Origin: Paragonimus westermani
Taxonomy: Eukaryota > Platyhelminthes > Trematoda > Plagiorchiida > Troglotrematidae
Reading direction: 5' to 3'
Length of the DNA stretch: 64,000 nt
Assembly: GCA_008508345.1 (NCBI GenBank)
Contig: QNGE01003259.1
Coordinates: 15,089-79,088, forward strand
The notes under the pieces are model-generated. The model searched no databases. It was given only the letters and a program-made list of their open reading frames with translations, and had not been told where the DNA came from. A program made the position numbers and the translations under genes. Positions 2,885 to 55,599 of this stretch are shown piece after piece (position 1 is the stretch's first letter; each line of letters starts with the position of its first letter).

Positions 2885-3065
2885 TTGTTAGCTCCAAGAC
2901 TGCGAGTTCATGGTCGCCTTGTGAAAATCTATTTGAAGTTCCGACCCTGGCTATGGCACGCATATGCACTACTGACAAGCTCTAAGAGAAGGGAAGTCGA
3001 ATCTGGTTTTTCTTTTCGAAAGTGACTGACGCGAAGGCTTATGAGAATGTGGCAGCCGAGGAATA
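2885..3065 (+). mobile_element. tRNA-derived hammerhead SINE, diverged copy
   Basis: This is the same family as the SINE at 25894-26090. Shared blocks are the weak B-box-like stretch near 2937, 'gcactactgac', 'agctctaagaga' and 'cttttcgaaag'. The hammerhead core is damaged: the first box reads CTGACAA instead of CTGACGA, and the GAAA box is altered. Confidence 0.65.
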
Positions 3066-4218
3066 TCCTGCGTCGTATTCAATTCTTTACTCCATTTAAG
3101 CCTGGTATAGCACAGCCGTCTGCGAAATCTGGGCTCTGTGAGTGCCGTTCAGGCAACGTGCATCTAGATACATTTTTCCAGCACGTCTCAGTTTTGTCGT
3201 TTAGTGGGTACCGTTGAGTTTTGAGTGTTCTACATAATTTATTTTTGTTAAATGGGATGCGCTGAGTGTCATACGAACATCTTCCATTGATCAACGTTCG
3301 CAAGAGCAACCAGATGTCGGGTGTTTATATTTCTTCTCAGTTTTTAGCGTGGTAGTGGTGTATCGTAAGTCTCATTCATTCAGGTCACTCGGAGAGTCGT
3401 TCTTCGAAGTTTGTCTATTTCCCAGCACGGATGAACCTTGAGCAGTTGGCTTGTGAAAAAGCTACTCAGTTTGAGGTTTTATATCGGAAAGATCTCGAGT
3501 GATTTTTATGAAATCTCTTCTCCCTTCTAAACGTAACTTGTAGTTCCCGTACAGGTGGTTTTCACTTATTTACTCACGGGCAGAGGGCCGCTGTTGAAGG
3601 AAATGCTGTAAGATGCAACATTATCAATATTTTGTAGGAATGGCTTATCATTATACCGATGGTTAGATTTTGGTGTGGAGCGGCAAAATGGAGGCGAGCA
3701 GCGGGGGTTTGAGTTTCTTAAATTGACAGTCCTTTAAAATCAATATACAAATATTCGTACAGTGGAATGCTTTATCGTAATGCGGCCTACTAACCGGGGG
3801 CTTAAATTTTGCGCTTGCGTAACTGTGGCCAATCAAGGATTTCTCTCCCCATAAAGAACTGGAGAATTTTTTCGAACGCGCAGACCAAATCTTTCGAATG
3901 ACACTAGAATAACACAAGGACTGCATTTCTATGTTGGGTTGACTACCGAGGAGAGCTTCAACTTCGAATACTTGCAGTAAAACTCAGTGAGCTTCAGCGC
4001 TCGAGATGATTGGCGTACTCTAACGGACTCCACAAGTTTGCTATTGTGGTAAAGTGGACTCAGTAGAATGAGAAAGCACTGCAGAACACTTAACCATACT
4101 GAATTTTAGGTGCTTCCAAAAACCAGAAATGATGAGAGTTTACTCCAAACTACTGAAAATGTGTGGAACTCGTTTGCCGTATAACGCTGTGATCTGTTTT
4201 CCCTGTCGTTTGTTTCAG
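3066..4218. other. Upstream region of the asparaginyl-tRNA synthetase gene; no exon identified
   Basis: The first coding exon, 5' UTR and promoter of the synthetase gene must lie here or further upstream, because exon 4219-4472 opens mid-codon. I could not pick out a short ATG exon with a supporting donor site. A pyrimidine-rich tract ending in AG at 4217-4218 is the acceptor. The ORFs here are short and unrecognised. Confidence 0.5.
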
Positions 4219-21256: not shown

Positions 21257-21884
21257 GATTTTGTTTTGTCACGTCAATTTGATGGTTGTGCGAATAGCCA
21301 GTTGTCGGTCATTGTACTTTACTTGAGTGATGCGTGCACCCCCTTTTTGGAGCTCGGCTCATCTCCATTGTTTTGAACCTGTTGACTGCTCGGAAGAGCC
21401 CTTCTGGCCCGTTCAGCAGCAAGTTGTAACCCCTTCCCCGGGAACGATATGTTGATCGGAACTGTTGAGTACTGTACGATCTTCCACGAAGACGTTGATT
21501 AACGCGTAGCGATAAACCAATGATCCCAAATATTCAGAACAAGATTGGATCGTAATGCCACGCTTTCACGGCCTGTATTCGTACTGAAAATCAAAATCAA
21601 GTAAGCTTTTGCCCTTTTAATCTACGCCAAGTTTCCGTCCTGGCTGAGCTTACCTCGGGATAATTGGTCTATCACTACGCGTTGCTCAACATCTTCGTGG
21701 AAGATCGTACATTGGGCACTCCCAGTAATCTTGCCGGCACAGTCATGCACTGAAATTCCAACAATAATCAGCTAGTTTTTCGCCCACTAGTTATGTTCAT
21801 AAAGTAAGATAAACCACATCAAAATTAAAACGAGTATAGCGAACGGTGAAGACAGTATTCGCGGGTGAATATCGTGGCTGCATA
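21257..21884. other. No gene recognised
   Basis: I see no coding frame, RNA gene or repeat shared with the rest of the window. Confidence 0.5.
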
Positions 21885-22015
21885 TTTGTGACCTACTTTC
21901 ATTTGATCACAGCGTTGACACTAACAGGCTCTGCTGCTAACCTCTTCTGAAGAGAAATACTAGGGTTCTGTTTTTATTATAGCTCTTCTGTGGTGCACAT
22001 CTTTGCCACAAAGAG
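21885..22015 (-). mobile_element. tRNA-derived hammerhead SINE, diverged copy
   Basis: 'atttgatcacagcgtt' matches the minus-strand tail of the family (compare 25849-25865), and the body resembles the ribozyme region in reverse complement. The core boxes are badly mutated. Confidence 0.55.
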
Positions 22016-22779
22016 GGTTTTCACCGTAGCCACTTTTTGAATTAACGGTCGTGTCGACCACTGTGCCAGTAATCATGATAGGCCTGACCGAATCAGCATG
22101 TGCAAATACAGCTAAATCTGCATATTGTTACACCCTGATTGGCCATTTTCTGCTCTAAAAGTCGTCAGTCCTCACGATATATTTGCGACTAAAACTTCTA
22201 ACATTTCACCTTCTTTATGTTGTCAATCTTGGATGCAAATCCGTCGGGCTCTCTGAGTCTGAGTCCACGCTAGGTCTCATTTGTCTGCAAACAACGAGAG
22301 TCTCCTTTCCTTTTGGTATCCCAGGCGGAATGGGTGATAATTTCTTCTAACCGGTGAAGTTTGTAAAAGGTGAAGTACCTTTTAATCCTCCATGACAAAC
22401 GGTGAATTTTGGATGAGGGAACATCAGATGTTTTGTAAGTGTGACAACGTGAGTGTGAGTGGTAAATTTGGGGGCACCTAACACTGCCTATGATGGTGGA
22501 CGTCGGCCATAGCATCATATGTGTTCCAATCATGCTCAAAAGCATACCATAATGCTGGGCTCAGAGGATTACCGGTCGCCATTCCACTAATTTGTCTTTA
22601 GAAAACCCCTTAAAAACCGAAGTGGTTATTGTCTACGCAGAAGTACAAGTCGTTGAATTTGTGAGGCCACTTTCTGTTGGAGGGTGAAATCATGGTTCTC
22701 GACTTGGAACGTTTGTAGATGAAAAGCCAACATTGGTAGCATTAATCTCATACGAACTTGTTGGTTTATCCCCCTAAGT
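22016..22779. other. No gene recognised
   Basis: It could contain decayed pol sequence belonging to the integrase relic that follows, but no motif is clear. Confidence 0.4.
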
Positions 22780-23400: not shown

Positions 23401-25220
23401 TTGTTCAGTCGTAAGTGGAAAACCTTTATACTCCCAACGAAAGGTTCGCTGTACCCACTGACATTCGACAGAAGAACCATGAGAGCAGTTACCTAAATGT
23501 TTGCCTAACCAATAGTGGTTTTGTGACGGCAAGTAGGAACATTGGCAAGAATTCAAACTGGAGTACGATATTCAACTTATACTCATATTGAACGGAGATT
23601 AATGACAAGGTTTAGTGATAGGTGGTATTGGAAGAAACATCCTCTGAATGGAAGATATGGGTGACCGTAGAAACCCCATCAACATAGAAAGAAGTCGAAG
23701 AAAAGTGAAGCGTAGAAAGATCTATGTGACCAGAAGTGTCAAATGGGAAACCGAGACGATGAGAGCAACGATGAACCGTAAATTGTGTCGTACAGGAAAT
23801 CCCTGTATCGGAAACAGAAAGATGTAATAGAAGGCACTCACAACTGCCTCAGTGAAGCGAAGGTTCATCCCTTCTATTCTGTGGACGTTTTGTTCACATT
23901 TCCATGCTCACCAGTCAGTTCACTCTGCTCCATGTGACTTGGCCTGTGCATGTTTATAAATGCAAGCAAGGAGTGCGCTCATTCTCGTCAGTATACTCGC
24001 TTGTATTGTTAACTTGCGGGCAGAATTTTTGACTGATTCTGGGTTGACTTTTGCATCAACTTCAAGTCGCTATTTTACGGTGCCGCGCAGGGTCCTTAGA
24101 GGATATCTTCAGTCGCAATGCGAAGGCAAAGGGAGAGAAATTTTACGTGATGAGACCTTAAAGTGTGGCGCTTACTCTGAGGATCTTAGTATTTAATCAT
24201 TGTGCGTTATACCAGAGGAACCAGTCAGAAGTCTACGTTCGGGAACAACGACGGATCGTTTGTTTTTCAGAATCGTTGGAAAAGTGGATCATTTGATCCC
24301 AGCTTATTCTGGGACCAACAATGTTAACCAGTGTGTACATACAACGGACAAGGAAAAACAAATACACCATTCTGTCACTCTTAGAAAGCCGATCAACTCC
24401 TGCAATAGGACACTGTCGTTCATTCCAAACACTCTATTTTGATAACGACATTAACAGAACAAACTGTTGTTCTGAAAGGTACGTCATCAGCTGTATACCG
24501 AGCTTTTCACATTTGAACCGAATGACACCAAGAATTGATTGGTGTTTCCTGCTACTACATTACAGCTTGACATATAGGCTGAATCATGTGAATTGTCTGC
24601 GACATTTTTGGTTCACTGCAGTTCGAAGTGAACGGCGTGGGAACAAGCGTGGCTGCCACAAGTTAACTGATGAGAGAATTTCTTGTAGCTCATCAACGAG
24701 GTCTGTCAAAATATCAGCAGAATTGGCTATACCCGTAGCCGCCTATGTGCGGTTCGCTTTTGCGGACATTTTTTCTCCCATATCTGCTTGCGAACGACGA
24801 TATCTAATCTTTACGGGCGTGGAGGGCATACCCTCTGTTTCAGCAACTGAGGTGGGGCGTGATCACCTAATTCAACGTGGTTGGCTGGGCTGTAAAACAA
24901 CTTTGACTTCCCAGTAAGCCATATGACCTCCTCCAGAAGTGTGCATAGGGGATCAGAAGAAGCATATTTAATGTTCCCGACCCCCACTGCTACATCAAAA
25001 GGCATGGGCTGCACGACAGAACTATTTAGCTTTCACAGAAGTTGCCTGCGAAGTACTGAATGCTGCTTCCGTATTGTGAGGCCGCAGTATGGGGTTACAC
25101 GCGATAGACCTAGGGAGACAATATATTTTACTGCTTTTCTCTGGCGTGCTGTCAAGCATATTAACTGATTCCATGAGGTAATTTGGCGTAAGTAGTCGTC
25201 GATGCAGGGAGAAGAAATGT
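23401..25220. other. No gene recognised
   Basis: The first few hundred bases may continue the Gypsy relic. A 198-codon open frame at 24321-24917 (+) has no recognisable domain, no signal peptide or repeats, and a composition like translated non-coding DNA. I leave it unassigned. Confidence 0.4.
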
Positions 25221-25456
25221 GATGTGTTGACATTTCGTTTACTTTCATCAGTCAAAAACGCAAAACATGTAGACATATAGAGATAGACGGGGTAGGGATA
25301 CGCACACGTTCATACCAAGTATCGTCAACACCACGACAACTCGATGAGTTGCTTCAACCTGATGAGTTGCTTCAACGGGTGCGGCTGGTGAGTCCTCATC
25401 CGTACAGCTTCGCCAAAGGCCAGCATTTACGGATTCGGACTGCGTGAAAATATTTT
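25221..25456 (+). repeat. 236-bp repeat, left member of an inverted pair
   Basis: It matches 27435-27671 in reverse complement almost end to end, from 'gatgtgttgacatttcg' to 'aaaatatttt'. Conserved blocks include 'gacggggtagggatacgcac' and 'cagcttcgccaaaggccagc'. This copy has a small tandem duplication ('gatgagttgcttcaac' twice at about 25344-25377) and lacks a short stretch after 'acatgtag'. Family unknown. Confidence 0.85.
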
Positions 25457-25830
25457 CATTATTTCAAGTGGGTCGAATTGGCGACCTGTTGAATTGTTCG
25501 GCACTCGATAATGCGGGATTTCAAGCAGCGGATTCATCGGTTCAAAACTGTAATTTCGCCTGCTGTTGTAACCACTTCGGGACGTGTATTTACACTCTCC
25601 CGAAGCAGTTATCGATCGGTTCTGCCTATGTAAACCCCAGTGCGACTAAAACTCAACTAGTAGACAACGTGAGACAAGCTCTGTTCACGATCGTGTAGAA
25701 CGCGTCCTTTGGTAGTTCGAACCAAGGGTAATTGTGCAGCTGCATACGTCAGAATAAAGAGAGATTCGGTTTGTGTCTGATGTCGTTTGCTAGATGATCC
25801 AGTTTGAATTGCAGAAATAGAAAGATATCT

Positions 25831-26090
25831 TCAAGTTGACCATCACTCACATTTGATCGCAGCGTTCGCATTCAGATAGACTTTCCAGCCAGNATGATTG
25901 GAATGTCCGGAGTTCAAATCCCGGCCGTGGCAAGGATATGCACTACTGACGAGCTCTAATGAGAGCGAAACTCGAGTCTAGTGCTTCTTTTCGAAAGAGG
26001 CTGGCTGGAAAGTCTATGTGAATGCGAACGCTGCGATCAAATGTGAGTGATGGTCAACTTGAAAATAAACCAAATTCCCGACTACTCATC
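25831..26090 (+). mobile_element. Palindromic (inverted) hammerhead SINE insertion
   Basis: 25833-25892 is a minus-strand copy of the SINE 3' part, and 25894-26090 is a plus-strand SINE body and tail. The arms 25833-25892 and 26001-26060 are reverse complements over 60 bases with one mismatch. The plus body has a Pol III B-box-like GTTCAAATCC at 25912-25921, a complete hammerhead at 25940-25984, and the family tail ending 'ccgactactcat'. The tRNA-like A box present in the 54.6 kb copy is lost at the N (25893). The whole structure is flanked by 'agaaagatatct' at 25819-25830 and 26091-26102, a 12-bp target-site duplication. Known relatives of this design are tRNA-derived SINEs such as schistosome Sm-alpha, which also carry hammerheads. 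Confidence 0.85.
25940..25984 (+). ncRNA. Hammerhead ribozyme, type I, complete core
   Basis: Every consensus element is present. Stem I is GCACTA (25940-25945) with TAGTGC (25979-25984). Box 1 is CTGACGA (25946-25952). Stem II is GCTCT (25953-25957) with AGAGC (25962-25966), capped by AATG. Box 2 is GAAA (25967-25970). Stem III comes from the self-complementary ACTCGAGT (25970-25977). The cleavage triplet is GTC, with scission predicted after C25978. All core residues known to be needed for hammerhead catalysis are intact. Because stem III is tiny and palindromic, the RNA might cleave better as a dimer; this is inferred from other animal hammerheads. Confidence 0.93.
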
Positions 26091-26102
26091 AGAAAGATAT
26101 CT

Positions 26103-26708
26103 TTCCTAGGAGCTGTTTGAACTAGCTCATTGCATTTGTTCGTCATGCTGTGAGTTTACTGATCTTTCCGAACTTCCATTTGCCAGTAACGTTTTTCTTA
26201 GCATCTCTTGTTCTGTCTGAAACTTATCCGAGATGCAAACATGCCAGGCCGTATGAAATGAGATCTTAATCAGACCACCAAACCGGAGTACTGTGTATAT
26301 TACCCGCTCCATGTTGATCGGGTTCGCCACCCAGTCTGGGGCCGTGGCGACTCCCAGTGTCGGTGAATAGAGACGTTTTGGTGAGCTTCCGGCTAATGGA
26401 GCTAAATGGAGTGAGTGCTGTTTGACCGATTTGCCTGTGAAGTAAGTGTATTTAATGACGCGCGGCAGTGAGAGCCGTAAGAAAGTTGTCTTGCTAATGA
26501 CGCCTTACTTTCGCTTATACTTCGGTTGTTTGTTCGCAACGTCTAGGCACCTTGATTCTCAATGTTTCAACATAGACTTCGCTGTTTATAGCAGTTATGT
26601 CTTTCCAGTCTCATTCTTTTTTTCTCCTGTCTTCCTGTACAGAGTTTGTTTTATACTCGTGGTTGTAGGGTAGCCGGGCATCAGTGAGGACCATTGACTT
26701 ACTACTGT
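26103..26708. other. No gene recognised
   Basis: This is part of the 2 kb interval between the inverted 236-bp repeats. Only short frames are seen. Confidence 0.5.
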
Positions 26709-27182
26709 TCAGATTGATGATGGAAATATGATCGTGCAACAGCAGCACCTGGAGTTAACTCGCTGTTTGCTTTTCTCAGCAATGTTATGTTTAATCATCT
26801 TTTCCCCACACTTTCGTTGTTCTTCCAATTTGACTTTTATTTTCATCATGACAACATCACAGCTGTTATCCAGCTTTGCAATGATCGGATACCGCCTTTT
26901 TATGAATTCTTTAATGGCGTGACGGGATTCCTGTTCGGGACAACACTGATGATGAATGAGTGCTGATATAAATAGGTTAAAAGGATGCAGTAATGGTGTA
27001 TACAAGCAGCCCTTCTCATCGGTATTATTGGGCGACAGATTCATCAGATGATCATATGTGTAATCAATTTGAACTTGAATTTCCAATGTTAGTCTTTGAA
27101 CGGTATTTTGAACTTCAACCCAAGGAGTTGGACGTGTGGCTCTGTCTTTGGGAGCTGAGGTATCCAGAGATCGTGCGCACAC
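26709..27182 (-). CDS. Hypothetical 157-codon open frame
   Basis: It starts at an ATG and runs 157 codons. I do not recognise it. It has a cluster of Cys at the C-terminal end (SRCCCCTII), a Lys/Glu-rich stretch (KIKVKLEEQRKCGEKMIK) that could form a helix, and no obvious signal peptide or membrane span. It lies between the two inverted 236-bp repeats, so it might be the cargo of a composite element. It may equally be a chance frame in AT-rich DNA. Confidence 0.2.
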   Translation of the reverse strand: MCARSLDTSAPKDRATRPTPWVEVQNTVQRLTLEIQVQIDYTYDHLMNLSPNNTDEKGCLYTPLLHPFNLFISALIHHQCCPEQESRHAIKEFIKRRYPIIAKLDNSCDVVMMKIKVKLEEQRKCGEKMIKHNIAEKSKQRVNSRCCCCTIIFPSSI

Positions 27183-27434
27183 TCTAAACCGTCGCCATTA
27201 CGTACACTCTCTGAGGACTAATTCTTACCTTCGTGTTGCAAACGGTTTCTCTGAAAACTTTTCAAATCTGACACGACATAAAGATGACAATGCATTTAGA
27301 GTCTCAGGCAAGTGAAGATGAGTTTCTACAAAGCTCTTTAGTTCTCTCTACAGAGTAAAAATATACTGACTTGTTAACCTCACTAGTTTGATGTGTCTTA
27401 CCAATTTGCCCTCAATTGACCGACTTCACTCATT

Positions 27435-27671
27435 AAAATATTTTTACGCAGTCCGAATCCGTAAATGCTGGCCTTTGGCGAAGCTGTACGGATGAGAACT
27501 CACCAGTCGCACCAATTGAAGCAACTCACCAGGTTGTCGTGGTGTTGATGACGATACCTGGTATGAGCGTGTGCGTATCCCTACCCCGTCTATCTCTATA
27601 TGTCTTTTGTATAAATAGACTACATGTTTTGCGTTTTTGACTGATGAAAGTAAACGAAATGTCAACACATC
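27435..27671 (-). repeat. 236-bp repeat, right member of an inverted pair
   Basis: Reverse complement of 25221-25456. The pair encloses about 2 kb. No target duplication could be seen next to the outer ends. Confidence 0.85.
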
Positions 27672-28895
27672 GCAACGTGTATTCCTTCCGCGCGGGTGAA
27701 ATCGTCAGACGGAAATCAGCACTCTAACTGGTTATGTTTAGTTGCCAGTAGTTAACGAACCACACCACCGGTTTTTTAGTTGTCACTTCTCATCCATCTT
27801 TCACACCCGGCAAATCTCGACCAAATGTGCTATAGGAGCCGCAGATGCTGAAATTTATAGGTGTCAACCATTTACACATTCCTATGAACTCCAGCGGATC
27901 TGAGGCAAATTGAACAACTAATTCATACATGATTTAATACATATAAATTAAATTTTCTAACTGAATTAACAAACGCTGTCCGCTTATTACCCAAACGCTC
28001 ATGAACGATACAAGTTTCTGTCCAACAAAATTTCATTCGACGATTGTTCACAACGGTAAACTACTATATATATGTATATCTATGTATACAAAATAGACAG
28101 TTAAAGCTAAATCGGCGTCTACAAACAAAATTGAGATGGTGTGAATTTTATCCAATGCCAAATTTCGCATGTAACCGTTTATGGTTTTATTATCCTTTAT
28201 AACCGTAACAACCTGATGAGATTTTATCGAAAACGTATTTTCGCTACACTTTATGTTCTATAAAATAGACTAGAATGAATGGAATGCTTCAGCTTATAGA
28301 CCACCGCATTCAAAATGAGGTTTACAGCCGAAGGTTGGAGCGAACCACATCAGAGACTAGTTTCCGCACTCGAAATGTGGGGCGAAGTTGAGTGTTGAAC
28401 GATAGCTGGTTTGACTAACAAACGCTTCAACTTACGACGTGAAACAAGCGATGGGGCGCAGAAAATCCCGTTCGTTGTCGCGTTGTCACGTTAATGCAAA
28501 AACTATGTATTCAAGTCCATTTCAGAAAGCGTGTATACTAACACAAAAATAAGGGATGATAAAGGTAACGACTAGCTGTAAGCATCATTTCAATAATGCA
28601 TACGAAATTTTATCGACAGGAGTAAAACTTTCTTAATATGAAAGTTGAAAATTTCCTATGACCTCTGTTCCGGTTATAACGAATTTCGGAATAGGGCGGG
28701 TAATTTACAAACAAAATTGGCGATAGAATGCCATGCAAACATTACTTTTTGCTTAACGTGATGCAATTTCTTATTTGTCTCTGTTCGAACAAAGGTGTTA
28801 CTTTCTGGTACAATGACAAGCGGTCCGATGTAGGTTCCACTTGTATCAACAGTGACGGAGGGAGAGAGAGAGGGAATTTCTCAGAATTAGATCAT
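27672..28895. other. AT-rich region without a gene
   Basis: It contains a TA-rich stretch near 28060-28090 and a short GA run near 28857-28872. No coding, tRNA or family-level repeat is recognised. Confidence 0.55.
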
Positions 28896-29091
28896 ATGGT
28901 TAAGCTTGAATAAAACAATGAGAAGACGCAATCCATGTGATGTTCTCCGGAGTAACATTTCGTACATTCTGATCACACATGGACATGTAACTAATTTTAA
29001 ACGAATCAAAATTCCACAGATCGGAAGTCATGGCTTAAGGGATTAAACAAACAGACACCAAAAATGAAAATCACAATTGTGGGACTGCTGA

Positions 29092-29565
29092 CTACCAGGG
29101 TAGCTGCAGTGTCAACACAAATTGTTTTTGAACACACAGGGGGGGACTGTGACGTTTAATGGCCAAGGCCTGAGCAAACTGGAGTATGCGTTTCCAGTTG
29201 CTCCGAAAGATCACCGAGAACGCGTCAGAAACTTTGACCATGTGTCCTGTTTGTATTATGTGCATTGCGACGGAAGATGCGGGGTGCCGTCCGTTGGCAT
29301 CTATACAGGCTCCTGGCGTTTCTAATTGCGTCTCCAGCCATTTGGGCACATGCTCCTTGATACGAACAGCTAGTTGTCGGTATGTCCTCCCTATGTAGCT
29401 CATACTGCAGCTACATGAGCATTTGTATAGACAGTGAGATGTGACAGACGTACATTGTTTGTTCGTAACCGGGGCGACTGTTAGAGTTCTAGTTCGTTTT
29501 ATTACGCACAGTTTTGCAGCGTTATGAATCTTGGATACAGCCGCTGTTAGACGCTTCCTCGTCAT
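29092..29565 (-). CDS. GIY-YIG endonuclease domain of the Penelope-like element
   Basis: 157 codons in the same frame as the RT, beyond its TAG. A Cys-rich lead-in (CLYKCSCSCSM) precedes 'SYIGRTYRQLAVRIKEH', which holds the GIY-YIG core with its catalytic Arg. 'HIIQTGHMVKVSDAF' and 'RILQFAQALAIKRHSPPLC' follow. This nicking domain is typical of the Penelope C terminus. It ends in a normal stop. Confidence 0.9.
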   Translation of the reverse strand: MTRKRLTAAVSKIHNAAKLCVIKRTRTLTVAPVTNKQCTSVTSHCLYKCSCSCSMSYIGRTYRQLAVRIKEHVPKWLETQLETPGACIDANGRHPASSVAMHIIQTGHMVKVSDAFSVIFRSNWKRILQFAQALAIKRHSPPLCVQKQFVLTLQLPW

Positions 29566-29655
29566 TGTTGACCAGCTGTCCCATAGAAACGGGAGTTCTA
29601 AATATACCTTCCTCTTCGGTACCGTCGCTTCTACGGTTGGGATGACGGCTTCGCT

Positions 29656-30807
29656 CTACTTCTTAATAAACCCCAGAGGGTACCCGTTGACCTGCAGAGT
29701 GTCTGTCAGTAAGTCTAACTCTAGTTGTAGGTTGTCTTCCGTGCAAATCCTCCGTGCTCTATGGACTAGACTTCTCTCATGCTGCACCGGACAGAAGCTT
29801 TCGAAATGCATGTACTGTCCAGTCCCGGTAGGTTTCCTGTAGACGGATCTCCCTACTGTGCCATCTTGTCTTCGAGTGACTAGAATGTCCAGGTACGGAA
29901 GGCAGTCATTCGCTTCGTTCTCTCTTGTCAGTTTTAGGTTCGATTCACTGGAGCTGTCAAAGATGACCAGAATATCATCTACGTAGCGTCTGTACAGCAC
30001 TGGTTTTGACAGGCTTCTGCATAGTGTGGATTCTACTTTGGCCATGAAGAAATCCGCTAGAAGTGGACCCAACGGACTGCTCATTGCAACCCCATCCACT
30101 TGTCGGAAACTATGCGTTTGAAAGTTGAACCTTACATTATGTGTGCATAGGAGTAATAAAGATTTCAGTTCGACAATCGGGATAGGAAAAGGAGTACTGC
30201 TACTTACAATGAATTCGCAAATGCTATCAACTGTTTCATGAAGCGGAAGATTAGTAAACAGGAATGTCACGTCAAATGAACACATCAGTTTATTTCGGAC
30301 ATTTAAGCCATCTATACAGTTAACAAGTTCAAAACTGTCCTTTAGACTGTACTTACTGAACTGTCTTCTGACTGGTTGCAGCAAATCAGCTAGCCAACGG
30401 GCTAATTTATGCTGCGGTGCGTTACACATGGACATAATAGGCCGAGGTGGGACATTGGGTTTGTGGGTTTTGGGCAGTCCGTACATATGCGGTGTGCGTG
30501 TGCCGACTGGCTTCATCAGCCTGCATTGATTAACAGACATGACGCCATTTTTCCTCAACCCTTCCAGCCTGCGGCAGATTTCCTTTACGACTTCTTGGAC
30601 GTTATCAGGATTATCATCCGCCTGAAATTTCTGACTATAATTAAGAATTTCAAACATTTTGTCCACGTACTCCGCTTTATCCATCAGCACAACCCCTGAG
30701 CCTTTGTCTGGACTTAACACCATCAAGTTCTCATTTTGTCTTATTTCTCTCAGGCTTTGGAAGTGTGCCGGTGTTAGTAAGTTCTTCATGGCCCAAGTAG
30801 AATCCAC
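29656..30807 (-). CDS. Penelope-like reverse transcriptase (interrupted by one stop)
   Basis: 383 codons. The RT blocks run in order: 'LSPDKGSGVVLMDKAEY' (aa ~31-47), 'MYGLPKTHKPNVPPRPIMS', 'CSFDVTFLFTNLPLHET' with the first catalytic Asp, 'GVAMSSPLGPLLADFFMA', and the catalytic 'YRRYVDDILVIF'. 'DCLPYLDILVTRR' follows. The frame meets a TAG at 29656-29658, after which the same frame continues into the GIY-YIG domain, so one stop separates the two domains. The plus-strand copy has a Tyr codon at that point. The start ATG given here lies at the copy junction and is probably not the native start. The RT would copy RNA at target DNA or chromosome ends. Confidence 0.9.
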   Translation of the reverse strand: MDSTWAMKNLLTPAHFQSLREIRQNENLMVLSPDKGSGVVLMDKAEYVDKMFEILNYSQKFQADDNPDNVQEVVKEICRRLEGLRKNGVMSVNQCRLMKPVGTRTPHMYGLPKTHKPNVPPRPIMSMCNAPQHKLARWLADLLQPVRRQFSKYSLKDSFELVNCIDGLNVRNKLMCSFDVTFLFTNLPLHETVDSICEFIVSSSTPFPIPIVELKSLLLLCTHNVRFNFQTHSFRQVDGVAMSSPLGPLLADFFMAKVESTLCRSLSKPVLYRRYVDDILVIFDSSSESNLKLTRENEANDCLPYLDILVTRRQDGTVGRSVYRKPTGTGQYMHFESFCPVQHERSLVHRARRICTEDNLQLELDLLTDTLQVNGYPLGFIKK

Positions 30808-31985
30808 ACTATGCGAAAGCCTGTCAAAACCAGTGCTGTAAAGACGCTACGTAGATGATATTCTGGCCATCTTTGACAGCTCCAGTGAATCGGATGCGTT
30901 ATTCTTGAAGTTGAATCAGGCTCACCCGAACCTAAAACTCACAAGAGAGAACGAAGCGAATGACTGCCTTCCGTACCTGGACATTCTAGTCACTCGAAGA
31001 CAAGATGACACAGTAGGGAGATCCGTCTACAGGAAACCTACCTGGACTGGACAGTACATGCATTTCGAAAGCTCCTGTCCGGTGCAACATAAGAGAAGTC
31101 TAGTCAGGACGCTTTTCCATAGAGTACGGAGGATTTGCACGGATGACAACCTACAACTAAAGTTAGGTTCACTGACAGACACTCTGCAGGTCAACTGGTA
31201 TTCTCTGGGGTTTATTAAAAAGTACAGCAAAGCCGTCATCCCAACCGTAGAAGTGACGACGGTACCGAAGAGGACGGTGTATTTAGAACTCCCGTTTCTT
31301 GGGGACAGCTGGTCAACAATGACGAGGAAGCGTCTAACAGCGGCTGTATCCAGGACTTATAACGCTGCAAAACTGTGCGTAATACAACGAACTAGAACTC
31401 TACCAGTCGCCCCGGTTACGAACAAACAGTGTACGTCTGTCACATCTCACTGTCTATACAAATACTCATGTAGCTGCAGTATGAGCTACATAGGGAGGAC
31501 AAACCGACAACTAGCTGTTCGTATCAAGGAGCATGTACCCAAATGGTTGGAGACGCAATTAGAAACGCCAGGAGCCTGTATAGATGCCAATGGACGGCAC
31601 CCCGCATCTTCCGTCGCAAAGCACATAATACAAACAGGACACATAGTCAAAGTTTCTGACGCGTTCTCGGTGATCTTTCGGAGCAACCGGAAACGCATAC
31701 TCCAGTTTGCTGAGGCTTTGGTCATTAAACGTCACAGTCCCCCCCTGTGTGTTCAAAAACAATTTGTGTTGACACTGCGGCTACCCTGGTAGTCAGCAGT
31801 CCCACAATTGTGATTTTCATTTTTGGTGTCTGTTTGTTTAATCCCTTAAGCCATGACTTCCGCTCTGTGGAATTTTGACTCGTTTAAAATTAGTTACATG
31901 TCCATGTGTGATCAGAATGTACGAAATGTTACTCCGGAGAACATCACATGAATTGCGTCTTCTCATTGTTTTATTCAAGTTCATA
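30781..31985 (+). mobile_element. Penelope-like element, plus-strand copy, 5'-truncated
   Basis: It opens inside the RT at 'MAQVESTLCESLSK' and continues through the YVDD box, the GIY-YIG domain and the 3' non-coding part. It is the inverted counterpart of 28896-30056. The junction with the minus copy is within a few bases of 30781. Differences include a TAA at 30839-30841 just before the YVDD box and a 33-base insertion after 'DSSSESD'. Confidence 0.92.
30905..31792 (+). CDS. Penelope-like RT C-terminus plus GIY-YIG domain
   Basis: 295 codons running from just after the YVDD box ('NDCLPYLDILVTRRQDD') through the thumb/linker ('GFIKKYSKAVIPT', where the minus copy has a stop) to the GIY-YIG domain ('SYIGRTNRQLAVRIKEH', 'CIDANGRHPASSVAKHI') and the end 'FVLTLRLPW'. 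In the last 157 residues it differs from the minus copy at about a dozen positions. It has no intact RT core, so it is not functional. Confidence 0.88.
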   Translation: MKLNQAHPNLKLTRENEANDCLPYLDILVTRRQDDTVGRSVYRKPTWTGQYMHFESSCPVQHKRSLVRTLFHRVRRICTDDNLQLKLGSLTDTLQVNWYSLGFIKKYSKAVIPTVEVTTVPKRTVYLELPFLGDSWSTMTRKRLTAAVSRTYNAAKLCVIQRTRTLPVAPVTNKQCTSVTSHCLYKYSCSCSMSYIGRTNRQLAVRIKEHVPKWLETQLETPGACIDANGRHPASSVAKHIIQTGHIVKVSDAFSVIFRSNRKRILQFAEALVIKRHSPPLCVQKQFVLTLRLPW

Positions 31986-32340
31986 AAGGGAACAAACTGT
32001 TTCATATGGTTAAGCGTCATGGTTAACGTACATATGGTAGACGCATTAACATCTGACCCGTACAGTTTTAGTGCAATGGACAACTGTGCAACCACTGGGA
32101 ATTTAGGTAAGGGGCGTTAAGCTACACCACACAATCCTAACGAATGATAAATATAACATTTCCTGTTTTCTGTGTTCGCCTAATGCAAATAAAACCTGCA
32201 AAAAACGTGCGCTAGCCGTAATTTGTGACATTCCGAAAGTGCATTAAGAGAAAACAAAAAAGCGAAGTTCAGTGAGTAGATTTTTCATATTTTTAGCAGG
32301 ACACCTAACTTGGCCCATTAATGTGCTTTGATAGATTGTA
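31986..32340. other. No gene recognised
   Basis: Flank of the Penelope-like pair. No motif seen. Confidence 0.5.
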
Positions 32341-33972: not shown

Positions 33973-36900
33973 TCACATCCACCGCCACAGTTCTCCAATT
34001 TTACTGACCGGAATTGGTTGTGTGGGATACTCACTGGGGTGGTTAGTGCTCTTCACTAACTGACATTGCTGGCACGCCCGCACATGATCGTTAACATCAT
34101 TCTCCATTCCTGGCCAGTATGCCCTTTGTTTCAGCATTTCGTAGGTTCGAGGACAACCCGTATGAGCCAACTGATGACATTCTTTCACAATTGCCTCCAT
34201 CAACTCCGCCGGTATGACCGGGACGTTTATTCCATCCCGCAATTCGCGCATCAAAATTCCGGCACTATTCAGCTGCAAATCGGACCAGTGCATTCTGAAA
34301 GCTTTCAATTCCGGATTCCCATCGTCTTCTGGCGGTTGTTCTCCCAACAAGAGTTGGTCAATCACCGTCCGGATCGTCGTATCCATTCTCTGTGCTGCTT
34401 GTAACTTCCCGGGGTCACTCTCCAGTTCAATACTGTTAACTCCGACCACGTCCTTGTGGACCTCATCGAAGTGTTGCGTTCGGGAAAGCAAATCGGGCAC
34501 ACAGTTCTCTTTCCCGGACAAGTGGCGAATTGTGAAGTCGTACTCCTGTAGTCGTAATGCCCAACGAGCCAGCCTTCCTCGAGGGTCCTTCGCCGATTTA
34601 ATCCACTCCAGCGGTTTGTGGTCAGTCTCCACATGGAACTGTCGGCCGAGCAAGTACGGCCTCCATTTTTCCAAGGCCCATACGATTGCCAAACATTCTT
34701 TCTCTGTCGTTGAATAGTTTCGTTCAGCAGGACTCAGTACCCGACTGGCGTATTCCACCACACCGTCCTCCTGCTTCAGTACCGCTCCAATTCCTACATC
34801 ACTCGCATCCGTTGAGACAATGAAGCTCTGTCCAGTCACTGGCAATTTCAGAGTCAGCTGTCCTTCTTTCATCAAGCGTTGGATCTCGACGAACGCTTGG
34901 TTGGCTTTCTGTGACCAATGAAATTGGCAATCCTTCCTCAGAATTTCGTATAACGGACTCGCGAGGTCATGGAAGTTTTTGATGAAGCGGCTGTAGAACC
35001 CGACGCGACCGAGAAACTGTCTCAGCGTCCTCTTCGATGTTGGCACCGGAATAGCCTCGATTGTCAGCAGTTTCTCGGGCAGTGGCTGGACCTCCCCCTG
35101 ACCGACCTTGTGACCGAGCAGTGTTACCGTTTGCTTCGCCAGTTGAGACTTTGAACTATTGATCCGGAGGCCGGCTGTCTCAATCTTCTGTAGCACTGCT
35201 GAAACGTGTACTGCATGTTCTGTCTCATTTGTGCTGTAAATGACGATATCGTCTCCATAGACAACAGTGTTGCTCACTCCGTCCAACACCTTCAGCATCA
35301 GTCGTCTGAACGTGAACGGAGCGCCTGAGAGTCCGAACGGCATCCGCTTGAAGCGGTATTGCTTTTCACCCACTGTGAATGCTGTCTTATCTCGGTCCGA
35401 TTGTTTGATTGGGACCTGCCAATATCCGGACCGTAAGTCCAACACTGTAAACACCCTGGCGTTCTGCAGCTTGTCAAAAATCTCCGCCACCGACGGGACT
35501 GCTACCACTTTATTGATCGTTATCTCGTTCAGCCGCCTGAAATCGACACAGAATCGAAATTTACCGTTAGGCTTCTTTACCAACAAGACAGGAGAGTTGA
35601 ACGGGCTATCGGCCTCCTCGATGATTTCTTCCTTCAGCATGTCCTTCACTTGTCGTTCAACTTCCGGCTGCAAATGCACTGGAATTCTTCGGGGTCCGAA
35701 TGGCCGAAATCGCTTTGATTCGATGGGGATTTCATGTTCAACCCAGTCACAATAGCCATACGGGTCCTGATCCGTAGTGAACAATCCCTGAAACTTGCGT
35801 ATCACTTTGTTCAGCAACTGATTGTCACAAGTTGGCATTGCTCTGGGTACGTTCACTTCAATTTGTCCAAGCTGGGTTTTGCGCTTTCCCACCAGTGGAA
35901 CCACCCCATACTTCGTTACCAGTTTATCATGCTTCAAATCAATCACGGCTTCAACGCGGTCAAGAAAATCCGCCCCCAAGATAGTCTGACGTGCGTCGGG
36001 GGCAATGACGAACGGTTGGTTGACTACCTGACCATCGATTCGAACACCATATTCTGCCAGGCCATCAACTTTGAGGGCAAACCCACCGACCGTTCGGACA
36101 ACCATCGCACACGGCCGCACAGTCTTTCCCGGCCTCGGCCCAATCAACGAAATCGCGGCCCCAGTGTCAATCAAACAGTACTCCAATTTACCATCGACTT
36201 CTAACCTAGCCTGAACCGCTGTCTTATCAACCGCCCCTATCACCGGATCCCCATTCCCAAACAAAAAACAATCGACAAATCGTTTATTAGCGTACGACCT
36301 TTTCTTGCCGAGTGGGCAAAACCTTCGCCAGTGTCCACGTCTTCCACATCCGTAACAAACGTCGCGACGGCTCTCCTCCTTTTTCACTTTCAAAGCCGCC
36401 ACTTCCTCAGTCAACTTTTCCACCGCGCTTCGAAGGTCATTCAGTTCACTCGGTCCGTTTGCCTCCACCTCGTTGACTGTCGCAGCATTTTCTGCTAGCA
36501 ATTGTCGAGCTGCATCGGCCAACTGTTCCAGCGTCATGGGCTGTGTGATGACAGCGACCCTGAGTTGATCCCGGACTGTTGGTGGCATTCCGTCCAAGAA
36601 CTGTGCCATCAGCAGTCGTTGTTCTGAGTCCTGGTCCAAATGCGGCAGGGCTCTTGACAACGCTGCCCGCAGGGACATGGCGTAGACCAGAGCATCGCCT
36701 CCTGGTCCAAGCCGGGCGCCCTTGAACCGCCTCATCGCCTCCTGGCAGTCGGCGGGGCTGTCGAACCCGGCGATCAGCGCCTCCTTCGCGGCGGCCCACT
36801 CCAGCTTCGCAGGGCCCCTTCGCGCCGCATCCAACACCGCCTTCGCCCTGCCCTTGAGCAGCATCCGCAGGGCCGCCAGCTTCGCCCGGTCCGCCTTCAC

Positions 36901-36987
36901 TCCGACCGCCTCCGCCACATCCTCGAAGTCCTCCAGGAAACTCCGAACATCCCCGTCCTCAAACGGCTGTGACCACGGGCTCTTCAT
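33973..36987 (-). CDS. Gypsy gag-pol polyprotein (gag, protease, RT, RNase H, integrase N-terminus)
   Basis: About 1004 codons if started at the ATG 36985-36987. An earlier ATG at 37047 lies inside the LTR, so I prefer the inner one. The order is: a GC-rich gag/capsid; a zinc knuckle CYGCGRRGHWRRFC near 36356; protease CLIDTGAAISLIG near 36170; RT with FCVDFRRLN and catalytic YGDDIVIYS near 35255; RNase H STDASDVGIGAVL near 34800; and the integrase zinc domain (HTGCP...CQQCQLVKS) near 34070-34180. Gag and pol share one frame, so no frameshift signal is needed. It stops at TGA 33973-33975, at a frameshift in the integrase core. Compare the family: the length through RNase H is normal. Confidence 0.95.
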   Translation of the reverse strand: MKSPWSQPFEDGDVRSFLEDFEDVAEAVGVKADRAKLAALRMLLKGRAKAVLDAARRGPAKLEWAAAKEALIAGFDSPADCQEAMRRFKGARLGPGGDALVYAMSLRAALSRALPHLDQDSEQRLLMAQFLDGMPPTVRDQLRVAVITQPMTLEQLADAARQLLAENAATVNEVEANGPSELNDLRSAVEKLTEEVAALKVKKEESRRDVCYGCGRRGHWRRFCPLGKKRSYANKRFVDCFLFGNGDPVIGAVDKTAVQARLEVDGKLEYCLIDTGAAISLIGPRPGKTVRPCAMVVRTVGGFALKVDGLAEYGVRIDGQVVNQPFVIAPDARQTILGADFLDRVEAVIDLKHDKLVTKYGVVPLVGKRKTQLGQIEVNVPRAMPTCDNQLLNKVIRKFQGLFTTDQDPYGYCDWVEHEIPIESKRFRPFGPRRIPVHLQPEVERQVKDMLKEEIIEEADSPFNSPVLLVKKPNGKFRFCVDFRRLNEITINKVVAVPSVAEIFDKLQNARVFTVLDLRSGYWQVPIKQSDRDKTAFTVGEKQYRFKRMPFGLSGAPFTFRRLMLKVLDGVSNTVVYGDDIVIYSTNETEHAVHVSAVLQKIETAGLRINSSKSQLAKQTVTLLGHKVGQGEVQPLPEKLLTIEAIPVPTSKRTLRQFLGRVGFYSRFIKNFHDLASPLYEILRKDCQFHWSQKANQAFVEIQRLMKEGQLTLKLPVTGQSFIVSTDASDVGIGAVLKQEDGVVEYASRVLSPAERNYSTTEKECLAIVWALEKWRPYLLGRQFHVETDHKPLEWIKSAKDPRGRLARWALRLQEYDFTIRHLSGKENCVPDLLSRTQHFDEVHKDVVGVNSIELESDPGKLQAAQRMDTTIRTVIDQLLLGEQPPEDDGNPELKAFRMHWSDLQLNSAGILMRELRDGINVPVIPAELMEAIVKECHQLAHTGCPRTYEMLKQRAYWPGMENDVNDHVRACQQCQLVKSTNHPSEYPTQPIPVSKIGELWRWM

Positions 36988-36998
36988 CCTTGTATCCT

Positions 36999-37011
36999 GG
37001 TCACGGAACCA
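36999..37011 (-). promoter_or_regulatory. Putative tRNA primer-binding site
   Basis: On the minus strand, two bases after the 5' LTR, TGGTTCCGTGACC would pair with a tRNA whose 3' end reads GGTCACGGAACCA. I cannot assign the tRNA species. Confidence 0.6.
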
Positions 37012-37013
37012 AT

Positions 37014-50114: not shown

Positions 50115-50290
50115 GTAGTGACTGTTGACACATCAAGATTCCAGTCCAGATGAGAATATGCACTGATGGGCCCTGCTAAGAGAGAAACTCGAGTTTAATG
50201 CCTTCTTTGGACGTGGACTAACCGAAAACCCCATTTGAGTGCGAAGGCTGTGATCAGATGTGGATTGTGTCCAACTTAAAGTAATCTAAG
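50115..50290 (+). mobile_element. Hammerhead SINE, diverged copy
   Basis: 'atatgcactgatgg', 'gagagaaactcgagtt' and 'gcgaaggctgtgatcagatg' match the family in order. The ribozyme is damaged: CTGATGG in box 1, and GTT instead of GTC at the cleavage site. Confidence 0.7.
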
Positions 50291-50470
50291 CCACTGAACC
50301 TCTGCTAATGAGTCAGGCCATGTTCAATCGGTTTAATGAAGACAGTAAATTCGACCTAATTGAGAATCACTGATCATGGGGTTATCGATTAGATTGCAGA
50401 ATGTTTTTGCTTATTCACAAGGTTGTGGTTGCGCGTTTTGATCACTATTCGGTAGTACCTAACACGAATT

Positions 50471-50640
50471 TGCTAACCTAGTGGTTAACACGCTGGTCTT
50501 ACAGGCAGGAGGGCCGGGGTGCAAATTCCAGTGCGGGCGAGGATATGAGCTATTGATGAGTTGTGATAAAAGTGAACGGATTTCGCGGGATTCGGATTTT
50601 CCGAAAGCAAACAGTTTTTCGTTCCCAAGGAAAGCGGACA
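50471..50640 (+). mobile_element. Hammerhead SINE, diverged copy with tRNA-like head
   Basis: An A-box-like TGCTAACCTAGTGG is at 50471-50484, and a B-box-like stretch (gtgcaaattcc) is at 50519. 'gaggatatgagctattgatga' then aligns with the SINE ribozyme region. Core boxes are mutated. Confidence 0.6.
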
Positions 50641-52382: not shown

Positions 52383-52387
52383 TGTCA

Positions 52388-52482: not shown

Positions 52483-54436
52483 CTAAACCCAACATCCAAA
52501 CTGTTTGACTTCATTCGTACTAAATTTGGTGCGGGTATCTTATAAATGAGCACGACTTTTGTAACAATCTTGACAAAGGAAGGTTGTCTTAACAATGTGC
52601 TGAAATAACATCGGCCGGATTCCACTGAATCGCCTCTCAAGAGAAAACGCAGTCACCGATGAAACAAATTCACTTACTCAAGGTCGGATCGATGTTGCCG
52701 ATTTGAGGTAGTGGTCAGGCTTGTGTACTGCACCGACCTACAGGGCTATGGTGATTGAGACCAATGAAATCCAGTTACACTCCTAGGGTTGTACGTCGTA
52801 CTATTGACCGCGTAAGGGTGTTTAAATAACGAAGCACGATCTTATAGGCACACAGTGGAACTAGCTTTGTGATTGCGACACTATCTTCAGAAAAGAGGGT
52901 TGGTAAGGGTAAAATCAAACAAAACACATCGGGGCAGCCCAACGGCTGATCGTGACCATATGCATACTGTCCAATGCGGTTGAAGAACTTTCGGTGTAAT
53001 TCAGAAGCTTTATATATATTCGAATACATCCACTACACACAACAGTGGCCCGAATTGGACAAAACTGTCTTATTCATCGCGCCCTCCGGCTGGTCTCTCA
53101 ATACCAACACAGTTAGAGGCTCCGGGTAGGGTCGTCCAAGAAAATCCTACTTCCTGCTGCCTTTCACAGGTCCGACCTTCGAATCAAAGACTCGCGGTGA
53201 AGTTCCCTAATTCAACTCCGCCCGTGGCACAAAAGGCTGAGAAGCTACAGGAGGTATTGTTTCTCTGTCAGACCCAACGAGAGCATATGAAACAACTTTA
53301 AAAAAATGACGGTTAAACCGTCCGGATCCCAACGGTGGAGTGATCCAAACGAGCATTGGGTAGAAATTTCAGGAACCGCGCAGACCGTTTGTAAAGAGGT
53401 CTATTCCAAAGGAGCACCACGGATGCGGCAGTAGATTTCCACAGGACTTTCCAACGAACGCTGATTGGTTATACAGACTCTGAAAACGACAAGGACCACC
53501 GAGCTACGAGCCAAAGAAATTGAGAAGACACTTTTATCAAGGAACAGTCGAGTGTTATTTTCAGCGATTCGTGGTTTCACAGTCTTCGTTAGTTGGCGAT
53601 AAGTGGACACAGGTTGTGAAAGCCTTGACTATCCCACTGAGCTGGCTACGAGATTCGCGATCACCCACAACGGGTGTAGGAAACAATCTCAAACACGTCA
53701 TTGTCGTGATCAGCAACAAACCTACATCTACAAGGTTATCGGCTTTTCCTTCTCTTCCCGTAACCTTCAATTGTTTTCTACACTTCTCTATACGATTGCA
53801 TTTATTTATTACTCCCCCTCTTCGTGGGCCACTGTCAGGACCAACGGCAGCCAAACCATAGTGTTCACGGGTTCGGCGCAAAGTTGAACATAATGATGAG
53901 TATAGAAGGCGTTTGTTGCTGGGAGGGAACACCGCATTATACGCACCGCAAAAAGATTTACATATTAAACAACACTTAACCTCGTAACGCATTTATTGCA
54001 CACTGCTGTAAACTTAGAATTTGCCAGCCGTGTTACCATCGACTGCTTTATCGACAGAACGAATATGCATACGTCTACCTTAAACAAAACAACTGTTGTG
54101 GTTGTCAAGCATAAAAATGGGTCAGATTTAAGTTACATACACGCAAATTAAAGAAAGACCTACAAAACGATAGGAACCACGATCAAAAATTTTTTCGTGG
54201 GAGAGAACTGTTCACCGTCATCAAATTGTTCCCACTGTGTTAGTGCCCGAGCTTCTCCTTGATCCAATGTTTCATACGGGCTTCCCTTTTCCCAGTGAAG
54301 CAATAAATACAGTACCTGTTGGATGAGGCGAGAAGGGCAAAGCGACAAAAAGTGACTGATAAGTAACAGTGACACGGATTACAATGACAATAATAACAAA
54401 CAACATATATAAAATATGTGATGATAAAAAGTTGAA
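52483..54436. other. No gene recognised
   Basis: Overlapping frames at 53520-53992 on both strands cancel each other as evidence. Near 53812-53830 a pyrimidine-rich run reads as a purine tract on the minus strand and could be an LTR-element trace, but no LTR pair was found. Confidence 0.45.
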
Positions 54437-54540
54437 CACCATCCACATTTGATCGCAGCTGTCGCATTCAGACAGACTTTCCAGCCAGCCTCTTTCGAAA
54501 AGAAGCACTAGACTCAAGTTTCGCTCGCATTACTGGGCGA
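54437..54540 (-). mobile_element. Hammerhead SINE, minus-strand partial copy
   Basis: 'catttgatcgcag', 'agactttccagccagcctct' and 'aagcactagactcaagtttc' match the reverse complement of 25970-26050. The GAAA box, stem III and GTC are present in reverse complement; box 1 is lost. Confidence 0.8.
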
Positions 54541-54610
54541 TCTGATCATTGCTCACTAGCAAATGTGGCTGAGCATTCACATATGATGATTAAGTTGTGC
54601 CTAATGTGAG

Positions 54611-54777
54611 GTCAATAGTGCAGTGGTCAACATGGATGTCTCATGAAAGCGTGACCACAGTTCAAATCCCGGTTGTGGCAGGGATATGCACTACTGGTGA
54701 GCTCTAATGACAGCGGAGGCTGCGATCAAATGCGACAGACACGCAACCTAAAATTAACCAAATTCCCGACTACTCAT
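54611..54777 (+). mobile_element. tRNA-derived hammerhead SINE, internally deleted, with full Pol III boxes
   Basis: A box TAGTGCAGTGG (54616-54626) and B box GTTCAAATCC (54660-54669) are spaced as in tRNA genes. 'gatatgcactactggtgagc' follows, so box 1 is CTGGTGA with one core change. The GAAA box to the stem-rich tail is deleted (about 70 bases), and the family 3' end 'aattcccgactactcat' closes it. This copy shows the head that the 25.9 kb copy has lost. It forms an inverted pair with 54437-54540. Confidence 0.85.
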
Positions 54778-55599
54778 CCGTAACATAAAATATTCGTCAG
54801 AATCAACGTAACTCAATTCGTGGCTTTTGTACCGCCGAACGTTCACCGCCGCGCAACTTACTAAGACGGGTAAGCTCTATAGGATCAGGCTTATCAAATC
54901 AGATGGCAGCCTGAGCTTTCACTGTACGACTGAAAGCCAGCGTGGTTACCACTGTTTATTTCTGATACACGCGGCAGCAATTCACATGAATTAATTGTAA
55001 GATCGAAGTTCACAACAAACGACACCCAGAGAATGCCTGTGTGATAGGCAACAACATAAACAATAACAAACCATAAGCACTTATTACAATGCTTTCAGTT
55101 CGACGAAATTGAGGTAGCTGGGATCATTTCCGTCTTAGTTTGAAATAATCCAGTAAGCTTGTATTACATAAACAGTTGAGGATGCTGTTTACACAGTCCG
55201 CACCACCAGCTATCCTACCCAGAAAAGACACGTTTGACTCGAGATAGTGCGCACAAATGTTGGCCCACGATTGCCATTAACCAACTAGCATCTTGATGTT
55301 GGGCACCAGCTTAACGGCGTGAAACAACACGATAAGGATGGCTCATTTATAGCGAATTTGTCGCAACCATCCGGACCCGGATCATACAGTTGTACGTGCT
55401 GAATTCGTTCTGTAACTTGTTCGGAGGTCAAACGCCTATAAATACAAGATAATTAATCGGTCTTCTACGAAGAGGGAACGCTTACCAGTACTGACATAAA
55501 CAACACCTCAAACTAGTAAGGTGAGAGAACCTAACGAACAATGGGAACAAGTCACGTTCACTAAGAAAGCTTACCGCAAAGAAGTGTGTTTCTACTCAG
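54778..55599. other. No gene recognised
   Basis: I see nothing identifiable here. Confidence 0.5.

Follow-up and report, generated by a model that had tools for sequence, protein, structure and literature searches.

The stretch of DNA analyzed here (the window) comprises 64,000 nucleotides of a Paragonimus westermani contig (QNGE01003259.1). At 25.9 kb, it contains a copy of a tRNA-headed SINE with a hammerhead motif, to which an inverted piece of the SINE tail is joined head-to-head, and about 3 kb away from this insert lies a Penelope-like element (Table 1). The insert is itself enclosed by an element of ~2.45 kb (25218–27674) with inverted terminal arms of ~240 nt (25218–25459 and 27432–27674), the flanks of which share no word longer than 6 bp. 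Elsewhere, an open Ty3/gypsy frame of ~1031 aa with RT, RNase H and integrase zinc-binding matches occupies 33973–37071 on the minus strand; a protein-guided scan of genome contigs with this frame gave 151 pattern matches and 0 relatives. An open frame at 4185–4907 matches the Asparaginyl-tRNA synthetase N-terminal domain (Pfam, 7.1e-13). A 103-nt fragment of 28S rRNA (21558–21660, minus strand; Rfam, 96.4 bits) is located between 55-nt inverted arms (21473–21711), one of which it overlaps by a few bases, and a long hairpin at 52286–52482 yields Rfam matches to MIR2934 and mir-1890 below gathering, which probably reflect the hairpin. Published work is cited by PMC identifier and from excerpts of the papers concerned.

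Table 1. Positions of the SINE copies, the compound insert and the Penelope-like element in the window.
Feature	Position	Strand	Basis or remark
Decayed copy, 2.9 kb	2891..3087	+	core CTGACAA, A15.1 to G in alignment
Decayed copy, 21.9 kb	21844..22081	-	4 core changes in alignment
Left direct repeat AGAAAGATATCTT, candidate target-site duplication	25819..25831		exact, 13 bp
Inverted arm	25832..25892	-	60/61 identical to reverse complement of 26001-26061
Single N at inverted junction, possible assembly join	25893..25893		sequence
tRNA-like head, 3' part, with B box 25912-25920 (read from sequence)	25894..25939	+	alignment with 54.6 kb copy
Complete type I hammerhead ribozyme (by sequence)	25940..25984	+	sequence, Rfam HH9, strict descriptor
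Palindromic minimal stem III, ACTCGAGT	25970..25977	+	folding: monomer 2 bp + tetraloop, dimer 8 bp
SINE tail to end point of inverted arm	25985..26061	+	alignment
29-nt 3' extension, sense arm only	26062..26090	+	13 A, 9 C, 6 T, 1 G
Right direct repeat AGAAAGATATCTT, candidate target-site duplication	26091..26103		exact, 13 bp
Direct repeats TCATATGGTTAAG of Penelope-like insert	28892..28904 and 32002..32014		13 bp, 14 bp counting next C
Penelope-like element, head-to-head	28905..32001		inverted arm 28905 to ~30781, sense arm ~30782 to 32001; RVT_1 match
Decayed copy, 50.1 kb	50118..50326	+	GAAA and ACTCGAGT retained; core CTGATGG, C17 to T
Decayed copy, 50.5 kb	50455..50640	+	A-box-like and B-box-like head by eye, outside the strict pattern
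Inverted arm, 54.5 kb	54413..54535	-	profile; 3' hammerhead half + tail without extension
Sense copy, 54.6 kb	54597..54799 (element end ~54778)	+	profile; head, 5' hammerhead half with broken core, deletion, tail + extension
Pol III A box + B box of 54.6 kb copy	54616..54668	+	strict box pattern

The Hammerhead Motif and Its Folding

Type I hammerheads are recognized by a core consisting of CUGANGA and GAAA, by an NUH cleavage site and by three helices, all of which are found at 25.9 kb together with an open stem I. The same core definition is given in PMC8490949. Every motif position that the original prediction had claimed for this hammerhead was recovered at its coordinates: stem I comprises 6 bp (GCACTA at 25940–25945 with TAGTGC at 25979–25984) and stem II comprises 5 bp (GCTCT at 25953–25957 with AGAGC at 25962–25966) closed by the loop AATG, while CTGACGA occupies 25946–25952, GAAA 25967–25970 and C17 position 25978, so that cleavage is predicted between C25978 and T25979. 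In E-value mode, Rfam returns Hammerhead_HH9 at 25928–26001 with 35.3 bits (E 3.5e-5), below the gathering score of 52; one lower-scoring match of the clan is omitted by the search tool. A strict descriptor (intact core, at least 4 pairs in stem I, at least 3 in stem II and at least 2 in stem III), applied to both strands, identifies one hammerhead in the window vs. 3 matches in 200 first-order Markov windows; a looser descriptor with the same core gives 30 matches per 200 random windows. Judged by its sequence, the motif is a complete type I hammerhead with an intact core.

Stem III had been described as self-complementary, and indeed it forms an 8-nt palindrome. In the monomer, the hammerhead with a 2-bp stem III has −8.8 kcal/mol, i.e., 4.9 above the MFE of −13.7, whereas the co-fold MFE of two 45-nt copies is a double hammerhead in which stems I and II are formed and stem III spans 8 bp (−34.1). 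In the 74-nt context, the MFE (−17.4) is likewise not the hammerhead, and the best hammerhead-constrained fold (−13.8) has stems I and II without stem III. The MFE structure of the single motif contains stems I and II but not the whole hammerhead fold, with z-scores of −0.13 (74 nt) and −1.64 (45 nt). Based on the co-fold MFE of the 45-nt motif, a double hammerhead dimer is thus predicted to be favored. Pairing of a palindromic stem III in a dimer has been described for other repeat hammerheads (PMC3088659), and many animal type I hammerheads, including those of Penelope elements, combine a weak helix III with dimeric cleavage (PMC7761336). Since hammerheads of schistosome W elements, with an extremely short stem III, were cleaved in vitro as single-motif transcripts (three according to PMC8490949), the dimer may help rather than be required.

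A tRNA-Headed Repeat Family

Six other, decayed copies of the repeat had been proposed (2.9, 21.9, 50.1, 50.5, 54.5, and 54.6 kb), and a profile of the seven copies recovers all of them: the 64-kb window contains seven family members with E-values from 3e-48 to 9e-32, which are inflated because the copies are themselves the profile seeds. The profile adds an inverted piece that was missing from the original prediction (25892–25824, E 8e-16) and two weak matches (25963–25911 on the minus strand, E 0.015; 48324–48371, E 0.77); the reversed window, searched as a control, gave no match better than E 1.1. With 25700–26300 as the only query, BLAST finds five of the six other copies (E 2e-36 to 1e-8), missing the one at 50.5 kb, and the identity of the 25.9 kb region to other copies is 70–90%; the arm at 54.5 kb matches over 54429–54532 vs. 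26060–25957 (90.4%). Exact patterns for the hammerhead, the joint of head and hammerhead, and the tail end have 0 matches in viral contigs, and the joint pattern has 0 matches in a collection of genome contigs.

The A and B box patterns of Pol III promoters formed the basis of a strict box search, in which the pair claimed for the 54.6 kb copy turned out to be the only one in the window (19 pairs were found in 200 random windows). The A box is absent from the 25.9 kb copy, and ARAGORN reports no tRNA gene in the window. The copies bear out the suggested layout of tRNA-like head, hammerhead and unique tail by alignment, profile and box pair. The features of a tRNA-derived SINE are present insofar as seven dispersed copies occur in the window, a clear direct repeat flanks one of the two loci examined, and the A and B boxes are found in one copy (54.6 kb). 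The likeness to Sm-alpha, which had also been pointed out, is apt, as Sm-alpha and Sj-alpha have been termed hammerhead-encoding SINE-like retrotransposons (PMC2770079). The sequence therefore supports the reading of the 25.9 kb element as a member of a SINE family that had a tRNA head, carried a hammerhead, and is of the same kind as Sm-alpha/Sj-alpha.

The further claim that the ribozyme is a feature of the family holds for the shared position and the partial motifs, but not for the whole core, which is present in only one of the seven copies of the window; the status as a family feature is hence deduced from position and partial motifs. Compared to the 25.9 kb copy, the 12 core positions show two changes at 2.9 kb, four at 21.9 kb, two at 50.1 kb (one being C17 to T, with which NUH is still satisfied), two at 50.5 kb, and three plus two gaps at 54.6 kb; the 54.5 kb copy has the 3' core half only, unchanged. 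Identity to the 25.9 kb copy amounts to 51/64 cells in the core, 257/378 in the tail and 112/168 in the head, which is suggestive at most, and these values as well as the pair counts depend on the MAFFT alignment of decayed copies. Covariation was rejected as support: the 78 pair cells examined outside the 25.9 kb copy, i.e., in the other six, comprise 19 gaps, 29 retained pairs, 9 that are changed yet still paired (2 on both sides), and 21 broken ones.

The hammerhead might thus be an inert fossil, preserved by chance and lacking cleavage or a role today. The two to four changes in 12 core positions in each of the five other copies that include the 5' part of the core, the lack of covariation, and a single-motif MFE that is not the hammerhead fold would all agree with this. 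However, the core of the 25.9 kb copy is intact, and this copy is probably a later insert than the others, since its arms are 60/61 identical compared to the 10–30% divergence of the BLAST matches to other copies; we therefore consider a mere fossil unlikely.

The Compound Insert at 25.9 kb

The head-to-head compound structure, which the original prediction did not contain, has the order AGAAAGATATCTT (25819–25831), inverted tail arm, N, sense copy (25894–26090) and AGAAAGATATCTT (26091–26103). This layout, with its arms, direct repeats and extension, is read directly from the DNA. The 13-bp repeats abut both outer ends of the insert, while the longest match in 199,662 random abutting pairs is 10 bp, and when two 66-nt stretches were drawn at random 20,000 times, with close pairs left out, 3 draws had any 13-mer in common. 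A 19-nt stretch of the extension also ends the sense copy at 54.6 kb and, with up to 3 mismatches, is found in the window only in these two SINE sense copies. At 54.4–54.8 kb, the inverted arm stops at the equivalent of 26060 without the extension, and the sense copy reaches 26090, i.e., the extension is present in both sense arms with a readable end and in neither of the two inverted arms (25.9 and 54.5/54.6 kb). A clean duplication was not found at 54.4–54.8 kb, where the longest shared word is 9 bp, AT-rich, and not abutting, and no inverted tail arm adjoins the copies at 2.9, 21.9, 50.1, and 50.5 kb.

The main weakness of reading the 25.9 kb structure as an insertion is the N at its inverted junction. 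The three Ns of the window are located at 8459, 25893, and 46074; the latter two border inverted-repeat arms and the first lies at the edge of the repeat that also occurs at 46.1 kb, which suggests assembly joins at hairpins. Because N25893 falls exactly on the inverted junction and N46074 adjoins an arm of an inverted repeat with 100% identity, the junction may represent such a join, and the whole inverted structure could be an assembly artefact at a scaffold join. An artefact would, however, hardly yield an exact 13-bp repeat abutting both outer ends, together with an arm that is 29 nt shorter at its 3' end, and is accordingly regarded as improbable.

Stretches beside two SINE copies, 2759–2853 and 54535–54631, match each other in inverted orientation at 72%, with the A-box region included in one of them, and may reflect a 5' inversion. 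A tail-like origin of the SINE 5' flanks at 54.5 and 2.8 kb was considered and dropped, as no score exceeded the best shuffle (in the most favorable cases, the score was reached by 14 and 16 out of 500 shuffles).

Mobilization by a LINE would offer a more conventional explanation: the element would be an ordinary Sm-alpha-like SINE, and its inverted arm the product of a one-off 5' inversion (twin priming) or of a template switch at the A-rich GAAAATAAA. LINE fragments, which we take to be RTE-like, are present in the window (open reading frames at 5624–6049, 6390–6908, and 59087–59569), the left direct repeat ends in TATCTT, which resembles the cDNA TATTTT at the arm start in 5/6 positions (a similarity that twin priming would exploit), and the 2.9 kb copy may hold a true 5' inversion (2759–2853 vs. 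54631–54535). Yet twin priming inverts the 5' part of an element without duplicating its 3' tail, whereas the same 61-nt tail is found in both arms at 25.9 kb. Moreover, a second locus has the same inverted-arm end, and within the window the 19-nt tail-end piece, at up to 3 mismatches, is confined to two SINE sense copies. Taken together, a LINE origin of the structure appears rather unlikely.

The Penelope-Like Element

The arms of the Penelope-like element (28905–29991 vs. 30842–31979) are identical in 1,043 of 1,138 columns, further arm pairs extend to 30782, and one arm has 22 additional nucleotides (31980–32001). The element therefore has the same build as the SINE insert at 25.9 kb, namely inverted arms, direct repeats and a one-arm extra. 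Five other inverted-repeat structures in the window, a grouping of our own from 14 arm pairs, have no word of more than 6 bp in common between their flanks, as searched over ~60 nt on each side. The divergence between the arms is 8% in the Penelope-like element vs. 1 in 61 in the SINE, a difference that has no explanation if each was inserted in a single event and the two are similarly old.

A GIY-YIG motif presumably belongs to the Penelope-like element; no GIY-YIG domain was detected by Pfam (even at E 10), by NCBIfam, or by a PDB sequence search of one piece. The predicted structure of the C-terminal piece has a pLDDT of 32.8 and is unusable, and a protein-guided scan of viral contigs with a Penelope-like piece gave 3 pattern matches and 0 relatives. 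Near the 3' end, both arms contain a hammerhead-like motif (core at 31908 on the plus and 28976 on the minus strand) with GTGATCA, in which C3/G8 are exchanged, and GAAA; stem I has 5 and 8 bp, stem III 5 bp, and stem II only 1 bp. This motif is uncertain, because 41 such matches occur in 200 random windows and its MFE structure is not a hammerhead (z 0.22).

Mobilization of the SINE

With its head-to-head arms and the 13-bp direct repeats on either side, the compound insert points to mobilization of the Penelope type rather than the LINE type. The marks of the former, a head-to-head inverted arm, a target-site duplication (TSD) and an optional tail of ~30 bp on one arm, are all present at 25.9 kb, and arms and tail, without a clean TSD, also at 54.5/54.6 kb. 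In a rotifer, Penelope elements carry an inverted pLTR; three cases have a TSD (8, 9, and 10 bp), others have none, an optional 31-bp tail occurs on one inverted pLTR, head-to-head is the commonest arrangement, and pLTRs have moved unrelated sequence in trans (PMC3846280). Inverted pLTRs and short 3' extensions have also been termed peculiarities of Penelope elements, on which retrozymes may rely (PMC8969392). A Penelope-like protein was shown to cut and extend both strands and to start at internal RNA sites, the interval between which makes up the tail; the hammerhead in that system is dispensable for insertion in vitro and cleaves only with protein present (PMC11167929).

Our preferred explanation, to which we assign a probability of roughly 0.6, is that a tRNA-headed SINE with a minimal, dimer-favoring hammerhead and a unique tail is moved in trans by a Penelope-like element via two-strand priming. 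What we infer is transcription by Pol III, cleavage of the RNA, the steps of integration and a Penelope partner, and these could be connected in the following way. The SINE would be transcribed by Pol III from the A and B boxes in its head, and the RNA would be cleaved after C25978, with the highest efficiency if two RNAs or two tandem units pair via the palindromic stem III. The Penelope-like enzyme would cut both target strands ~13 bp apart and prime reverse transcription on both, close to the 3' end of the RNA, at 26061 on one and at 26090 on the other, whereupon the two cDNAs would be joined. The outcome would be two head-to-head arms, one of them with the 29-nt extension, and a 13-bp TSD. 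The scars of the SINE fit such two-strand target-primed reverse transcription; as an alternative, the authors of PMC3846280 favor self-priming on an antisense template for inverted structures over two-strand priming.

The SINE tail has no significant similarity to the 3' region of the Penelope-like element in four comparisons (in the sense direction, 169/1000 shuffles reach the same score); for this one candidate partner, a shared recognition sequence was thus not found in the 3' region. The distance from the cleavage site to the inferred start of reverse transcription is 83 nt in the SINE and 85–92 nt in an anole element (PMC11167929), an observation on which we put no weight.

Alternatively, the element could be a metazoan non-LTR retrozyme, in which tandem hammerhead repeats give rise to self-cleaved units, circular RNA and, finally, reverse transcription. 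The type I hammerhead, the weak helix III, the predicted dimer preference, the small size and a TSD of more than 4 bp are shared with retrozymes (PMC7229834; PMC7761336). Tandem units bounded by hammerheads are absent from the window, however, and its only array has an 18-nt period (12126–12161). In addition, the copies lie scattered, and their tRNA-like head with Pol III boxes is not listed as a retrozyme feature in the excerpts of PMC7229834 and PMC7761336. A retrozyme is thus very unlikely.

A bolder extension of Penelope-type mobilization would be that the palindromic stem III is a dimerization device. SINE RNA would pair as a double hammerhead and be loaded on a dimeric Penelope-like enzyme, offering two templates for both target strands and thereby leading to head-to-head integrations; the ribozyme would be kept mainly for template pairing, with cleavage then releasing the pair, and hammerhead SINEs would generally be Penelope-dependent. 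We regard this as speculative and very unlikely.

Relation to Known Elements and Implications

Stem III of Sm-alpha may be longer than the 2-bp palindromic form, but according to PMC8490949, an extremely short stem III is found in all hammerhead candidates, including variants of W36.2, its Sm-alpha family. Sm-alpha of Schistosoma mansoni and Sj-alpha of S. japonicum share the tRNA-related head, the type I hammerhead and dispersed short copies with the SINE, while inverted-arm insertion and two-site 3' ends are not mentioned in the excerpts of the two papers, the comparison being one of descriptions and not of sequences (PMC2770079; PMC8490949). tRNA-headed hammerhead SINEs as such are therefore already known (PMC2770079). 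The W elements of schistosomes resemble the SINE in their minimal type I hammerhead with a very short stem III; unlike the SINE, they are satellite-like families, again as compared by description, and a W-element hammerhead with CUGANAA, a change that is also present in the 2.9 kb SINE copy, showed no cleavage in vitro (PMC8490949).

Penelope-like elements have in common with the SINE the inverted arm, the optional one-arm tail of ~30 bp, the TSD, and a minimal hammerhead upstream of the start of reverse transcription (PMC7761336; PMC11167929; PMC3846280). They differ from the SINE, which has no reading frame, possesses a tRNA-like head, and has no significant sequence in common with the 3' region of the element in the window. 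Metazoan non-LTR retrozymes are, like the SINE, small and non-autonomous with a type I hammerhead (PMC7229834), whereas the SINE has a tRNA-like promoter head and no tandem repeats in the window. Penelope elements have been proposed as a strong candidate for the mover of retrozymes, on the grounds that the two co-exist, that both are found in tandem and that type I hammerheads are common to them (PMC7229834; also PMC7761336; PMC8969392). In a search of the open-license PMC literature, hammerhead SINEs with scars of the Penelope type were not encountered, although such a finding may be in print.

Both hammerhead SINEs and retrozymes occur widely among animals, and Penelope-like elements are likely candidates for their mover on the grounds of co-occurrence and of the type I hammerheads found in both (PMC7761336; PMC7229834; PMC8969392). 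Insertion scars provide another kind of evidence on what moves hammerhead elements, and the head-to-head insertion of the best SINE copy hints at the machinery that mobilizes ribozyme elements. Should inverted arm, 13-bp duplication and optional tail be found again across copies, junction counts in genomes that contain both kinds of elements could decide on the mover.
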